Assembly (NCBI GenBank): GCA_021498125.1
Contig: JAIZWL010000001.1
Location: forward strand, 571,434 to 635,433
Length of the DNA stretch: 64,000 bases
Direction of reading: 5' to 3'
From: Candidatus Thorarchaeota archaeon
GTDB lineage: Archaea > Asgardarchaeota > Thorarchaeia > Thorarchaeales > Thorarchaeaceae
Part shown: positions 48,199 through 55,553 of the stretch, piece after piece
Layout of the letters: each line of letters begins with the position of its first letter
How positions within the stretch are numbered: the first letter of the stretch is position 1
Made by a program: the position numbers and the translations under genes
Notes under the pieces: generated by a model
What the model saw: the letters and a program-made list of their open reading frames with translations, nothing else
Databases searched by the model: none
Told to the model about the DNA's origin: nothing

Positions 48199-48373
48199 AT
48201 ATATTATCTTTACAGGTAATTGTATTTCTCGTGACTCATCGCGACCTGCATTGGACATGATTTTCCAGAGGTCACACAACAACCTTGACCGAACTTCCTC
48301 ACGTTCGTGTCACCCCTCTACATACTGTTCCATGATCCCCCCTACTAGAATGCACTGAAGGAAGATGGCTCCT

Positions 48374-51300
48374 ATGAAAATTAGATTACTCTCCATTGCA
48401 ATGCTCTTTGTAATGATCTTAACGCTACTGTTTCCGGTCACGCCAATCACTAAGGACTCTCCAGTTATCACTAGCACAAATGGTACACTTGGACCCACTA
48501 TTCAAGAAAATCTGTTTATTGCAGATGCGGGGGGTCAGGGGCAGCAATCTGGTGCCACTGTATATTTTACACAAGACATTCCAAGTCAGACATTGTCTGT
48601 TCTCAATACATATGCTACTCCTGCCACGCACAACGGGAACCTTGACCTCACCCCTTATCTCATCCCCGGATGGACCTTGTATAAAGTGGAGATGAATATC
48701 GACAATATTACGGCCACTGCCGAGAGGCAGACTCTAAATGTTGTTCCAAACGATCATATTAAGATAGAAAACAACAGTGGATATACAACTGATGCATTGT
48801 ATCAGGCATTCTATTACCGGACTCATGATGGCAAGCTTCTGAATTATACTCTTGGCTACATGGCCCCATACTACGATACATCTCTAGGGAAAGCTTGGCT
48901 TGTTGTTCGATCTGATTATTCGAATCCTTCGACTAATATTTCGAGTTGGATATCTCCATTCACTCAGATTATCACTGAAACAACAGTGAGCCATGATGTT
49001 TCTTCAGACAATACCATACTGAACGCAAGTTCCTACTATTATGTTGTTATTGATGGTACTGCAATGACTGGAACAAAAGTTTCCTCCGATTGGTATTTCA
49101 ACAAAATATATTGGGACTCGCAGACAATCTTGGGTGTTGAAACAGGATATCACGGTCGAGATGATGCTTGGCGTCAATATTCGGGCATAGCTCGTGAAGA
49201 AGCTGAACTAAATTACACATACGTACCTTGGAATAAAACGGAGTCGCGTCCAATAGTCTATTCTCAACCAACCGAAGTCAGTCTGAGTGCAAACTCTACT
49301 AGTGTTGTTGGGGATAAATGGTTGTTCACTTCAGTTTCAAATATCACTCAGATTTCGTTTTCATCGAATCAATCAGTTAATATTTATCATAATTTAACAC
49401 TTTGGTACAAACAAGATGTCCTATCAAGCTCAACTTGGAGTTCTGCAAGTTCAGGTGGAAATGTTGATTGGAATATAACAAGTCTGGTTTTATATCCACA
49501 AATTGCTCAACAGAGATATCTTAATCTTACAAAACAGGTTGACTGGACAACAACGGGATTCTATAATGGGACTGATCCAACAAATCATTCTACTTATACT
49601 ACAATGGCTGATAGCATCACCGTTTCTACGATGACAAATGGTACATGGACACTGACCTGTACCGCCCCCAACTATGTCACAGAGATCATTACACGTGATT
49701 CAGTGAGTATCACAGACAATCTGTTAATCACAAACACGATTCAGGATACTGGTGCAAATAATGCAACTACCGGATCGACTAATCTGACAATCTGGCAAGA
49801 CTCAGCCCGTGTTGCCCATCCTGCAAATGAGACCGTTGTCAATGGCGCGACGACCTATACATGGGACATTGATTCTGACACAACAAACAATGGCACATAC
49901 CGGATTGAGGTCTACTGGGCGAACGGGACAGAGGCTGGTTATCTCACGAGAGAATTCATCGTCTACTATCCTACAACCCTTACCAGTCAGGATGCCTCCA
50001 TCTCAACATTCACAGACAGCAGCTTCGACATCAGTGTGTACTTTAATGAAACCTTCACCCCAAAGGCTCTTGATGGGAGCTATGCAGGGGTTTCGACGGT
50101 CTACTCCTTTGACGGCAGCGCATGGACATCCATGACCGATCAGGGGAATGGGACATGGACCGCGACCATCAGCACGGCCGGATTCACAGCCGGAACCTAC
50201 CAAGTGCGAGTGAATGGGAGCGGGTATGCCATCGAGAACCAGAGCATCACGATTGATGTGACCCTGACTTACGACACACTGCCGTTGGTGGTGGCATGGT
50301 CGAATACGGATAACATCAGCTACACCTCACACACGAACCTTACAGTCCAGTACAATTTTGTGAATGGTACACACATCTCAGAGGCTCTTGTCACTGTGAC
50401 GGATTATACGCATACATGGACATTGCAGTATGATTCAAGTGGGGGGTACTATTGGCTACAGTTCAATGGGACTGATGCTCCCGGTCTTGGTACCCACACG
50501 CTCAACATCAGTGCCTCAAAGACGGGATACGAGTCGCAGTACGACTCCTCTCAGTCGTTGTCTATCTATAAAGAGCCCACATCGATCACGGTGACGTGGA
50601 CCCCTGCGAATGTGACCATTCCCTATACAGACAGTCTTAATCTCCAAGTGGACTACACATACGGGACTGGCGATGTCCCTTCAGGGTCTGCACTTGTGAA
50701 CGTGACAATTGATGGGGTCACCTATCCCCTGACCTATATTGGTTCGGTCTGGAATGTCAGCCTTGCGGGTTCGGACCTCAAACTGGGCATTCATACCGCA
50801 TACATAAGCGCATGGTCTTATGGATACGCGCCACAATCGAATACAACATCTGGCATCAATATCACCCTCGCCCCCAACTCATTCATTGTCATCTGGGAGA
50901 ACCCCTCCGACCTGAACGCGACCTATACAGAACTGGTCAACATCACCGTGATCTATACTTATGATAGCGATCCCGTTCCTGGGGCTACGGTGCGACTCTA
51001 TCTGAACTCTACTCGTCCCTACGATTTCACACTATCACCTGTTGATGACAGGTGGCATCTGCTCCTGAACGCCTCGGATGTGGGGTTGGGCAAGTGGAAT
51101 GCGACGATACTGGCCAATCGGACAGGATATGACACAGGGCGTCAGACAGATACACTGACGGTGGTTGTAGATGTCTGTACGGCCGCTCCCAATTGGTCTT
51201 CAACCACTGTCTATTACACTCACACTGAGAATCTAGACATTACCGTTCTGGACTCATTCGGTCACCCCGTGACCGATGCCTTAGTGAATGCGACCTATCG

Positions 51301-53770
51301 CGGAAGCAATTACAATCTCACTCATGTGGGCGGCGGGATCTATCGGCTCACAATTGACGGCCATGATGGAATGGGCGCCTTCAATATACAAGTCTGGACG
51401 TGGAGATATGGTCTTGTGAATCATTCACTCACAGTCCACATAGAGATTGTTGAGACCCCAATCAGTGGTGACCTGTTGACGGGCTTCGGTGGTTTCGATA
51501 ATACGGCTCTGTATCATGATGGTTGGGTGATCTTTACAGTCACACTACGTGATGTGGACAATAATTCGATCGTGGGAATGACTGTCAATCTTACTACAAC
51601 GACTACGATCTATCATCTAACAGATAATGGTGATGGGACCTATCAGCTCAATCTCACTGGATATGAACTCGGTATAGTCACGCTCAGCGGAAACTTCACT
51701 GCGGATCTATTTGGATATGACTCGTGGAAGACCACAATATCTCTCGATGTAGAGCCAGTCCCTACAAGAGTAGATGTCATTGTGGGTACTATCCCCACAG
51801 AGATGTATCTGAATCAGACCATTCAGATCACGTTGGAATATGTTAATACACACACCAATGCTCTCATTGATCCTACCGCCACGACTTTTACCTGGGCCGG
51901 GAGTTCACTGACCTATTCCGAACCGACTGCTGGAAGGTTCTCGTTCACTCTGAGTGCAGTTGATCTGGCATTTGGAGCACATAATCTATACATCTCTCTC
52001 TCCCGCAGCAATTATTCGGGGCAGGTCATTGATAGCGACATTATAGTTCGTGCAGTTCACACAGAGATCACAACCAACACTCTGTATCAAGAGTATGAGA
52101 ATGAGACCATCCGGTTCACTGTTGAGTTCAGGGACACCGATCGCAATCTCATCTTGGCTGGTCGCCAGGTGAATGTCACCATTAGCGGAAGCACATACAT
52201 GATGCATTACGATTCCGAAGATGAGTCATATTATCTCGATTTTCTCATTGTGCTATCACCGGGTTCCTACACGATTACCTTTGCAGGTGCCGCTCCCGGT
52301 TATGATCGATGTGAGGCCAATACGACTCTCATTGTCAATCCAAAGGCTGTGACCACTCTCACAATAGAGTTAGTCGGAAAGGTAGTGGTGGGTGCCCCCG
52401 TTGTCGTTCGAGCCACTCTGACTGAGGGAACGCATCCAATCATAGGTGCCACTGTCTATTTCCATGTGATGGTCTTTTACTCCTCAGGCGACAATGTTAC
52501 ATCAGTTATAGGTCGTGAGACCGATGAGCATGGAGTTGCCGAACTGACCTATATCATTCCTACAAGTGACACCGTAGCGTCATCATTGGCGATCACGGCG
52601 GAGTACAGGGGTACTCGTGACAAATGGCGTGCTGATTCTATTCCGCTCAATACTTCTGTGGAACCGGATATCGGTACCGCATTGACACAGTTATTTGCGA
52701 CGCCCCCGGGTTGGTTACTCCTCGCTCTAGTAGCCGGAAGTGTCGTGACAGGCGTGAAGTTGCGGAGGCGCCGGGCGAGTAAACGTGCTGGACGGCTCTC
52801 CGGTCTGAAGTCGCGTTATGACGATTTCCTGAGCCTCAATTCACTTCGCCACTTCATGATCGTCTACAAGGATCGTGGGACCTGCATCTTCTACCATCCC
52901 TTTGGAGAGCACCGAATCCATGCTGATCTCATCAGTGGGTTCATCTCCGCCATGACCTCGATGTACGGTGAGATCAAGGGCAGTGGTGATCGTGGGGCCC
53001 TTGAAGAGATTGGCTACGCAGGATTGCGAGTTGCCAGCTATAACGGTGATCTGGTCATTGGTATTCTGATAGCAGAAACAAGTATGACCCCTGAGATTCG
53101 GAAACGTCTTCAGAACTTTGTCAAGGAATTTGAGAAAGAGTACAAGTCCGACCTGACTGATTGGACAGGCCTGATGGATTGCTTCGATCCCGAATGGATC
53201 GTTTCTACTCTCTACTCTGAGCTTGGCTACCAGATTGTCTTACCGCACACTATTCGGATGCGTCACTCGCGCCTCTCAGGTAGGGAGAAGAAATTATTGT
53301 CCTATATCCAGCAGGATCTGGAGTCGCAGGGCAAGTCTGAGTTCAGAGTCGGTGAGTATCTAGACAAAGCTGCGGAGATGCTCAAGGCTCCAAAGATGAT
53401 GGTCTTAGACATGTTCATTCGTCTGGAAGAGATAAATGCGATCCAGCCAATTGATATTGCTACGGTTCTTCAGAGACAGGGTCACCTTCCAACGACTGTG
53501 GAAGGTATGTCTACTCCCTATAGTGTACGTGAAGATGCCCCCGAGGCCGAGGAGGCATCAGAAGAATCTTCGGCCCCTGATACGGTAGACTCCTCGGTCG
53601 AGAGTACAGAAGACAGTGAGTCAACAAGTGATACTGACGAATCAGTAGAACAGTTTGTTGCTGAAGTTGAACGTCTCTTACAAGAGGAGCGCGCCAAGGA
53701 CCTGTCCGATGATTCAGAGAAGTCTACAGATGGTTCCGATGATTCGGATGTGTCTGAAGAAGAAGAATAG
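48374..53770 (+). CDS. Giant surface protein with Ig-like repeats, one TM helix and a longin-like cytosolic part
   Basis: About 1798 residues from ATG 48374 (AAGGAAG upstream; ATG 48365 is too close to it). A signal peptide (IRLLSIAMLFVMILTLLFPV) leads a 580-residue N-terminal ectodomain, then roughly nine Ig-like units of about 95 residues (about 630-1435) with many N-x-S/T sites. One TM helix (WLLLALVAGSVVTGVKL, about 1447-1463) precedes RRRR. The cytosolic part starts with LNSLRHFMIVYKDRGTCIFY and GALEEIGYAGLRVASYNGD (about 1490-1600), a five-strand/two-helix pattern like longin or roadblock domains. A helical wHTH-like segment and an 80-residue Glu/Asp/Ser tail follow. Confidence 0.85.
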   Translation: MKIRLLSIAMLFVMILTLLFPVTPITKDSPVITSTNGTLGPTIQENLFIADAGGQGQQSGATVYFTQDIPSQTLSVLNTYATPATHNGNLDLTPYLIPGWTLYKVEMNIDNITATAERQTLNVVPNDHIKIENNSGYTTDALYQAFYYRTHDGKLLNYTLGYMAPYYDTSLGKAWLVVRSDYSNPSTNISSWISPFTQIITETTVSHDVSSDNTILNASSYYYVVIDGTAMTGTKVSSDWYFNKIYWDSQTILGVETGYHGRDDAWRQYSGIAREEAELNYTYVPWNKTESRPIVYSQPTEVSLSANSTSVVGDKWLFTSVSNITQISFSSNQSVNIYHNLTLWYKQDVLSSSTWSSASSGGNVDWNITSLVLYPQIAQQRYLNLTKQVDWTTTGFYNGTDPTNHSTYTTMADSITVSTMTNGTWTLTCTAPNYVTEIITRDSVSITDNLLITNTIQDTGANNATTGSTNLTIWQDSARVAHPANETVVNGATTYTWDIDSDTTNNGTYRIEVYWANGTEAGYLTREFIVYYPTTLTSQDASISTFTDSSFDISVYFNETFTPKALDGSYAGVSTVYSFDGSAWTSMTDQGNGTWTATISTAGFTAGTYQVRVNGSGYAIENQSITIDVTLTYDTLPLVVAWSNTDNISYTSHTNLTVQYNFVNGTHISEALVTVTDYTHTWTLQYDSSGGYYWLQFNGTDAPGLGTHTLNISASKTGYESQYDSSQSLSIYKEPTSITVTWTPANVTIPYTDSLNLQVDYTYGTGDVPSGSALVNVTIDGVTYPLTYIGSVWNVSLAGSDLKLGIHTAYISAWSYGYAPQSNTTSGINITLAPNSFIVIWENPSDLNATYTELVNITVIYTYDSDPVPGATVRLYLNSTRPYDFTLSPVDDRWHLLLNASDVGLGKWNATILANRTGYDTGRQTDTLTVVVDVCTAAPNWSSTTVYYTHTENLDITVLDSFGHPVTDALVNATYRGSNYNLTHVGGGIYRLTIDGHDGMGAFNIQVWTWRYGLVNHSLTVHIEIVETPISGDLLTGFGGFDNTALYHDGWVIFTVTLRDVDNNSIVGMTVNLTTTTTIYHLTDNGDGTYQLNLTGYELGIVTLSGNFTADLFGYDSWKTTISLDVEPVPTRVDVIVGTIPTEMYLNQTIQITLEYVNTHTNALIDPTATTFTWAGSSLTYSEPTAGRFSFTLSAVDLAFGAHNLYISLSRSNYSGQVIDSDIIVRAVHTEITTNTLYQEYENETIRFTVEFRDTDRNLILAGRQVNVTISGSTYMMHYDSEDESYYLDFLIVLSPGSYTITFAGAAPGYDRCEANTTLIVNPKAVTTLTIELVGKVVVGAPVVVRATLTEGTHPIIGATVYFHVMVFYSSGDNVTSVIGRETDEHGVAELTYIIPTSDTVASSLAITAEYRGTRDKWRADSIPLNTSVEPDIGTALTQLFATPPGWLLLALVAGSVVTGVKLRRRRASKRAGRLSGLKSRYDDFLSLNSLRHFMIVYKDRGTCIFYHPFGEHRIHADLISGFISAMTSMYGEIKGSGDRGALEEIGYAGLRVASYNGDLVIGILIAETSMTPEIRKRLQNFVKEFEKEYKSDLTDWTGLMDCFDPEWIVSTLYSELGYQIVLPHTIRMRHSRLSGREKKLLSYIQQDLESQGKSEFRVGEYLDKAAEMLKAPKMMVLDMFIRLEEINAIQPIDIATVLQRQGHLPTTVEGMSTPYSVREDAPEAEEASEESSAPDTVDSSVESTEDSESTSDTDESVEQFVAEVERLLQEERAKDLSDDSEKSTDGSDDSDVSEEEE

Positions 53771-55045: not shown

Positions 55046-55187
55046 ATCTCCAAAACTTGGATGGACTGATTTGATCTTGCAAGACTAAGGCACAAAGTCT
55101 GATTCCATAAGAACACGAATATTTATTATTTAGCAATCTACTGCTGTAATTTGTTCTATCAACAATTTGATAGAGGAGCTGATAGTA

Positions 55188-55553
55188 TTGGAAAATGATG
55201 AGGCTATACTAGAGGAGCTAAAGGCGATCAGGACACTGCGCGAACCACCACCGACGCCTGCACCACCTAAGGGATTCGTCAATGAATTTGTTGATTTTCT
55301 CTCCAGGTATAAGGTGCTCGGTCTTGCCGTGGCATTTATTCTTGGTATCTATCTTGGTCTGCTTGTTCAGGTTCTCGTTGATGACTTGATAATGCCTGTT
55401 ATCAATCTCTTTATCCCTGATGTTCCATGGGAAGAGATCACGGTCTATACTTTCAGAATTGGGCATTTTGTTGGTGAGCTCATACCGTTCATCATTGTAG
55501 CACTTGTTGTCTTCCTATTAGTGAAAATTGCTTCACGAATGGGAATCGAGTAG
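55188..55553 (+). CDS. mscL: MscL-type large-conductance mechanosensitive channel
   Basis: From TTG 55188 (GAGGAG upstream) this is 121 residues. An acidic N-terminal helix (ENDEAILEELKAIRTLR) and Pro-rich linker precede FVNEFVDFLSRYKVLGLAVAF. TM1 (GLAVAFILGIYLGLLVQVL) and VDDLIMPVINLFIPD match the MscL pore region; TM2 is FIIVALVVFLLVKIA. The family usually runs 130-150 residues and lacks this N-terminal extension. It opens under membrane tension to release solutes. Confidence 0.85.
   Translation: MENDEAILEELKAIRTLREPPPTPAPPKGFVNEFVDFLSRYKVLGLAVAFILGIYLGLLVQVLVDDLIMPVINLFIPDVPWEEITVYTFRIGHFVGELIPFIIVALVVFLLVKIASRMGIE

Follow-up and report, generated by a model that had tools for sequence, protein, structure and literature searches.

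A candidate type I surface receptor of Thorarchaeota with a longin-fold cytosolic domain

In eukaryotes the longin domain is the fold used to control membrane traffic and small GTPases; in NPRL2/3 it is followed by winged helices. Of all organisms, Asgard archaea are those most closely related to eukaryotes; they encode small GTPases by the dozen, and longin and roadblock domains are numerous among their proteins. Small GTPases are bound by roadblock or longin dimers, and Asgard proteins in which a GTPase is fused to such a domain have been described, as cytosolic proteins and in a paper from which the word 'transmembrane' is absent (PMC10933270). Asgard proteins of the Vps28-C/adaptin-appendage/longin type, in which Ig-like, TPR and HTH domains accompany the longin and for which a role in GTPase activation has been proposed, are linked to ESCRT and are very patchy in distribution (PMC10936438). 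Longin-containing ESPs are enriched in a cultured Lokiarchaeon, and the ESPs of Ca. L. ossiferum include a category named 'NPRL2-like longin domain' (PMC9834061). The gene considered here lies in the window, the whole stretch of 64,000 nucleotides of Thorarchaeal DNA that was analysed, and its product is a candidate surface receptor or adhesin-receptor of type I, with an architecture that suggests a sensing role.

Architecture of the encoded protein

The gene (48365-53770, forward strand) is a single uninterrupted open reading frame encoding a single-pass type I membrane protein of 1801 residues, and its closest orthologues are collinear with it along the full length at 53-56% identity; an in-frame ATG at 48374, taken as the start in the original prediction, is as plausible as the start at 48365. 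Hydropathy analysis located an N-terminal hydrophobic segment at residues 4-29, corresponding to a signal peptide of about residues 1-27 (48365-48445) and present also in complete orthologues, while the only other strong hydrophobic segment (approximately residues 1443-1466) contains a transmembrane helix, 1448-1466 (52706-52762), the position of which is kept in orthologues and which runs directly into an RRRR stop-transfer at 1467-1470 (52763-52774). All 57 N-x-S/T sequons of residues 1-1460 precede this helix and none follows residue 1490, which fixes the topology as N-terminus outside and C-terminus inside.

The ectodomain, of approximately 1440 residues, consists of an N-terminal beta-rich part, about residues 52-330 (48518-49354), for which Foldseek returned no clear single PDB match, followed by a sequon-rich string of Ig/MG/FnIII-like beta-sandwich repeats, about residues 331-1440 (49355-52684), the assignment past residue 640 being based on sequence and weak Pfam matches. 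With 24 orthologues, AlphaFold modelled residues 30-640 as nearly all beta-strand (pLDDT 87.2), and in Foldseek this model resembled chains of MG, Ig and FnIII domains; Pfam added weak matches to Invasin_D3 and Big_1, below cut-off. As the similarity is to long Ig/MG-like strings at low TM-scores, no ligand class can be named from the ectodomain fold. Close relatives have collinear ectodomains; elsewhere the number of repeats varies. A signal peptide, an ectodomain, one transmembrane helix and a conserved cytosolic domain are thus all present, and the Ig-like ectodomain, single membrane helix and RRRR of the original prediction were borne out by hydropathy, weak Pfam matches, AlphaFold and Foldseek.

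The cytosolic part was modelled over residues 1475-1720 with 50 orthologous sequences (pLDDT 87.7, pTM 0.83), giving the predicted order helix, two strands, helix, three strands, two helices and winged helix. A juxtamembrane helix (1476-1492; 52790-52840) precedes beta-1 of a domain at 1494-1620 (52844-53224) which has, in the model, the beta-beta-alpha-beta-beta-beta-alpha-alpha topology of a longin, with strands at model positions 20-27, 32-38, 72-77, 80-86 and 90-96 and helices at 46-63, 102-118 and 135-146. The two sequence stretches on which a longin/roadblock-like fold had been proposed by eye are located at residues 1496-1510 and from 1549 onwards, and structure prediction followed by a fold search agreed with that proposal, giving no unrelated fold. 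Almost all of the 50 best PDB hits obtained with Foldseek were longin/roadblock-fold proteins, among them COPI ζ/δ, AP-2 σ, VAMP7, Sec22b, TRAPP subunits, sedlin, Mon1-Ccz1, Fuzzy-Inturned, LAMTOR/Ragulator and Ego3, with target TM-scores of up to 0.70; of these PDB matches 17 had E<=1e-3, nearly all to longin/SNARE-like or roadblock proteins. Giant-virus synaptobrevins were among the leading matches in a viral structure library, which served as an independent check only.

By sequence, the cytosolic domain falls below every cut-off of the curated Longin and Roadblock families: Pfam Longin gave no match in the receptor itself, Pfam searches of 24 orthologues found no longin or roadblock match, and PDB sequence profiles gave chance-level matches only, with Mon1 appearing weakly (E 0.78). 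The domain is filed by fold, and not as a member of PF13774. Of the two halves of the longin/roadblock label the longin half fits better, as the approximately 20 Robl_LC7 matches in the genome include none at the places of the receptor's longin family, and the only two weak Pfam-Longin matches in the genome fall on the paralogue L002/L129 (E=0.03) and on L128, the best of them, which is also matched by a profile built from receptors only. The modelled domain is accordingly placed in the longin/roadblock superfamily, nearer to longin.

Helix alpha-1 of the longin domain (1520-1537; 52922-52975) is the most conserved cytosolic element by alignment and by per-position entropy, almost all of its positions being fixed (mean entropy 0.27 bits in Thorarchaeota and 0.68 overall, as against 1.12 and 1.66 for alpha-2). 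Roadblock proteins dimerise through the equivalent part of their fold, the region of the central helix (PMC10933270). The winged helix-like part of the original prediction was modelled with confidence as a winged helix (1639-1704; 53279-53476), with an acidic third helix, and is followed by an acidic tail at 1705-1801 (53477-53767), probably disordered as judged by composition. The tail is acidic, as had been noted, but not featureless, as it contains the hydrophobic motif FVAEVERLL at 1764-1772 (53654-53680), carried on the peptide SVEQFVAEVERLLQEE. The pattern F[VIL]x[DE][VL]xxLL, counted with A also accepted at position 2 and I or M at the final position, occurs in 22 of 22 Thorarchaeal tails, in three of which it is doubled, where 0.02 were expected from shuffles; the pattern was picked after viewing the same tails, so the shuffle figure somewhat overstates the case. 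The main point is that the motif is kept in tails which otherwise diverge, and it may be of a docking type, serving to dock a partner.

Distribution, paralogues and genomic setting

Homologues with the same arrangement of transmembrane helix and cytosolic domains, on which the original prediction depended, are abundant. A profile of the transmembrane, longin and winged-helix region matched 174 of 228 genomes of the same phylum (Asgard) at E<=1e-20, and 38 of the 45 high-quality genomes among these. An orthologue at E<=1e-15, usually single-copy, was present in 23 of 39 relatives, and in at least 20 related genomes the transmembrane and cytosolic part is 40-52% identical. A family-alignment search of GTDB contigs recovered 49 loci, all Asgard, where a scan of these contigs with the single sequence gave no match. 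The named relatives are Thorarchaeota, Lokiarchaeota and Helarchaeota, although the Helarchaeal matches comprise the longin only, in proteins without a receptor-type ectodomain. Lokiarchaeal orthologues have a helical TPR/MIT-like tail in place of the motif tail, the MIT match being weak (E=0.018) and below cut-off. Fifteen long-frame matches outside the window's own family, drawn from the stronger matches and not a random sample, were all single-pass proteins with a long ectodomain, a transmembrane helix that immediately precedes the longin and an additional helical or winged-helix region in the cytosol; sequons numbered 1.9-6.0 per 100 residues outside the membrane and 0-0.9 inside, and an N-terminal hydrophobic segment was present in 13 of the 15, one of the others being truncated and one lacking it.

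At five loci (L039, L044, L059, L066 and L075) a second Ig-rich single-TM protein is encoded in tandem directly upstream of the receptor, its C-terminal end consisting of a transmembrane helix and a winged helix, with a divergent longin-like stretch between the two at L044.

The genome of the window contains about 22 members of the longin family by profile, nine of which, besides the receptor, pass E<=4e-7 with the receptor-only profile. Their architectures include soluble proteins with a longin and winged helices, a second Ig-rich single-TM receptor (L125, with its full gene in L172), a TPR-longin protein (L006) and multi-TM proteins with a longin (L004, L011, L118, L122, L123 and L124); a winged helix follows the longin in the receptor and in most soluble paralogues. 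The six multi-TM proteins have about seven helices and a C-terminal longin, and are a candidate second class of membrane sensor. The multi-TM and TPR paralogues indicate that the domain is used as an exchangeable module to which varied inputs are joined. Arf/Ras-like GTPases, of which the genome encodes roughly 30, are fused to the same longin family in L008/L143, L142 and L156. In L008/L143, recovered by the receptor-only profile at E=1e-8 in a 20-protein set, a longin-like stretch stands on either side of the GTPase and winged helices are also present; L142 and L156 are weaker, at E of about 5e-6 with the family profile in an 11-protein set.

Several further loci were noted in this genome. 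L128 (region of G000:C6:48038-48196) encodes 325 residues with a longin and what seems, by eye, to be a V4R/TRAPPC3-type C-terminus, and is possibly a TRAPP-like fusion in a Thorarchaeon. At L174:3451-7179 (G000:C5) two adjacent genes encode, respectively, longin, a GTPase-like middle without a P-loop (by eye), longin and two winged helices, and longin, Arf-like GTPase, longin and two winged helices; by analogy the pair looks like a pseudo-GTPase and GTPase reminiscent of the Rag heterodimer. L126, a distantly related member that stands alone, is part of a closely spaced gene run ending with a Ras-like GTPase, and the run at L173:3159-5756 (G000:C8) comprises a small zinc-ribbon-like protein, a stand-alone longin-like protein with a weak Fuz_longin_1 match (E 0.002), a multi-TM protein of approximately 460 residues and a Ras-like GTPase.

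Downstream of the receptor, most Thorarchaeota encode on the same strand a protein of approximately 100 residues of no known family and then a conserved block, in the order LarA, VTT/DedA, thiolase and acyl-CoA dehydrogenase. In the window's genome this block is found at C1:1.283-1.300 Mb without the receptor, which is located at 0.62 Mb; an obligate operon was therefore rejected, as relocation to the window has carried the receptor about 670 kb away and left the gene of approximately 100 residues behind. The ancestral site (L171:7076-9894; G000:C1:1290075-1292893) has the usual flanking genes adjacent to each other, with a HEPN/MNT-like toxin-antitoxin pair (by eye) just past the gene of approximately 100 residues. 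In the window the receptor adjoins an oligopeptide-type ABC permease and, beside the permease gene, a short MscL-type mechanosensitive channel (55167-55553; Pfam E 5e-16). As the receptor stands away from the conserved block in this genome, its neighbours do not define its function.

Candidate functions of the receptor

The reading that we favour, with a confidence a little better than even, is that of a type I surface receptor whose longin-winged-helix platform acts on an Asgard Arf/Ras-like GTPase or its partner complex, with the tail motif serving for docking. Outside binding or clustering would bring longin domains together via the almost invariant alpha-1; the longin dimer and winged helix would then form a membrane-anchored platform able to recruit, activate or inactivate the GTPase or partner complex, with the tail motif docking an additional partner. 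On this view the receptor would belong to a wider group of Asgard signalling proteins that set one longin module on varied inputs, namely Ig ectodomains, multi-TM domains, TPRs and GTPases. We infer GTPase regulation to be the best-supported reading from fold, fusion and family precedent, since the longin fold, the GTPase fusions, the Ras-like GTPase in the gene run of L126, the conservation of alpha-1 and the phylum-wide spread all point to it, and the fusions are the strongest argument that the module may work with GTPases. The original prediction of a receptor controlling GTPases or trafficking thus gains from the GTPase-fused paralogues but not from gene order: no conserved GTPase neighbour of the receptor was found, GTPases occurring beside about 4 distinct loci of about 80, which by rough estimate is at or below chance. 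It also counts against the GTPase reading that longins work without GTPases, in SNAREs and adaptor subunits, and that the winged helix could have a function of its own.

The main rival, which we regard as rather unlikely, takes the protein to be an adhesin or envelope glycoprotein whose longin and winged helix anchor it to cytoskeletal, adaptor-like or ESCRT-like machinery, making it a mechanical or a cargo/sorting receptor rather than one that signals. A very large, repeat-built and glycosylated ectodomain would suit such a protein, AP, COPI and TRAPP complexes have longin-fold subunits, and nearly all of the 22 tails contain [DE]xxxL[LI], formally an acidic-dileucine pattern; however, a dileucine signal is extended, whereas the tail motif resembles an amphipathic helix. 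The TPR/MIT-like tail of Lokiarchaeal orthologues points the same way, but with its MIT match below cut-off, and the longin, which is the most conserved element and is common to soluble, multi-TM and GTPase-fused paralogues, suits signalling at least equally well.

An improbable alternative is a membrane-tethered transcription regulator, following the logic of ToxR or CadC, in which the winged helix would sit on DNA and the longin would dimerise it. The receptor and most of its soluble paralogues have a winged helix behind the longin, which would agree with this, as would those upstream tandem proteins that end in a transmembrane helix and a winged helix with the longin absent or divergent. 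The third (recognition) helix, however, is acidic and not basic (mean net charge -2.0, range -4 to +1, in 46 sequences) in a domain that is about neutral as a whole, which, charge being an indirect test, argues against DNA binding; the winged helix is also less conserved, at 1.5-1.8 bits against the 0.27 of alpha-1, and in ESCRT-II winged helices act as protein-interaction modules (see PMC10936438). More improbable still is an incidental longin-like fold, a profilin/roadblock-type scaffold whose partner is an unrelated protein or small ligand, with no link to GTPases or trafficking, for although similarity to curated Longin and Roadblock sequences is below cut-offs and longin, roadblock and profilin have a common core (PMC10933270), the leading Foldseek hits are nearly all longin/roadblock proteins of trafficking and GTPase complexes and the family is directly fused to Arf/Ras-like GTPases.

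Under the GTPase reading, a widespread longin-bearing surface protein is a concrete candidate for the input side of Asgard GTPase control, and suggests a previously undescribed coupling of the cell surface to the GTPase/membrane-traffic machinery; GTPase regulation before endomembranes becomes a question that can be tested with recombinant domains. A more far-reaching proposal, which we hold only tentatively, is that of an ancient, phylum-wide Asgard class of receptors in which an Ig-rich ectodomain acts through a cytosolic longin-winged-helix platform on small GTPases, without kinases or G-protein-coupled receptors and beside sister multi-TM-longin proteins. If true, a surface-to-GTPase pathway would predate eukaryotes, and the longin GEF/GAP complexes of eukaryotes could have arisen from it. 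The widespread surface protein also suggests that longins may have served first as modular signalling outputs on many sensors and were later fixed as subunits of TRAPP, adaptors and SNAREs.

Comparison with known systems

No description of a transmembrane receptor whose output domain is a longin was found in the open-licence literature, and each of the known systems agrees with the receptor in part. The R-SNAREs VAMP7 and Sec22b also carry a longin fold (target TM-scores of 0.44-0.68) on a single-TM membrane protein, but their order is longin-SNARE-TM without an ectodomain, whereas in the receptor the transmembrane helix precedes the longin, there is no SNARE coiled coil between the two, and the longin is followed by the winged helix and tail. 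The fold is likewise that of the TRAPP longins (Bet5/TRAPPC1, Trs23/TRAPPC4 and sedlin) and of Mon1-Ccz1 (7b6d_E, target TM-score 0.70; 7qla, E 4e-4); these complexes are GTPase exchange platforms, a function that by analogy is also proposed for the receptor, but unlike it they are soluble and have no receptor part. Ragulator/LAMTOR and the MglB roadblock form GTPase-binding dimers of related fold (5x6u_B, target TM-score 0.67), from which the receptor domain differs in the absence of a Robl_LC7 match and in an extra C-terminal helix as in longins. The longin-winged-helix order is common to the receptor and to NPRL2/3-like longin proteins, Pfam NPR2 giving no match in the genome at E<=1. Of the Asgard proteins, the published longin/roadblock-GTPase fusions belong to the same domain superfamily, and related longin-GTPase fusions occur in the window's genome, while in contrast to the ESCRT-linked longin proteins the receptor is a single-TM surface protein, is widespread and has no detected ESCRT domain. 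The kind of domain is therefore a known one, and it is the architecture of the receptor and the breadth of its distribution that appear to be new.
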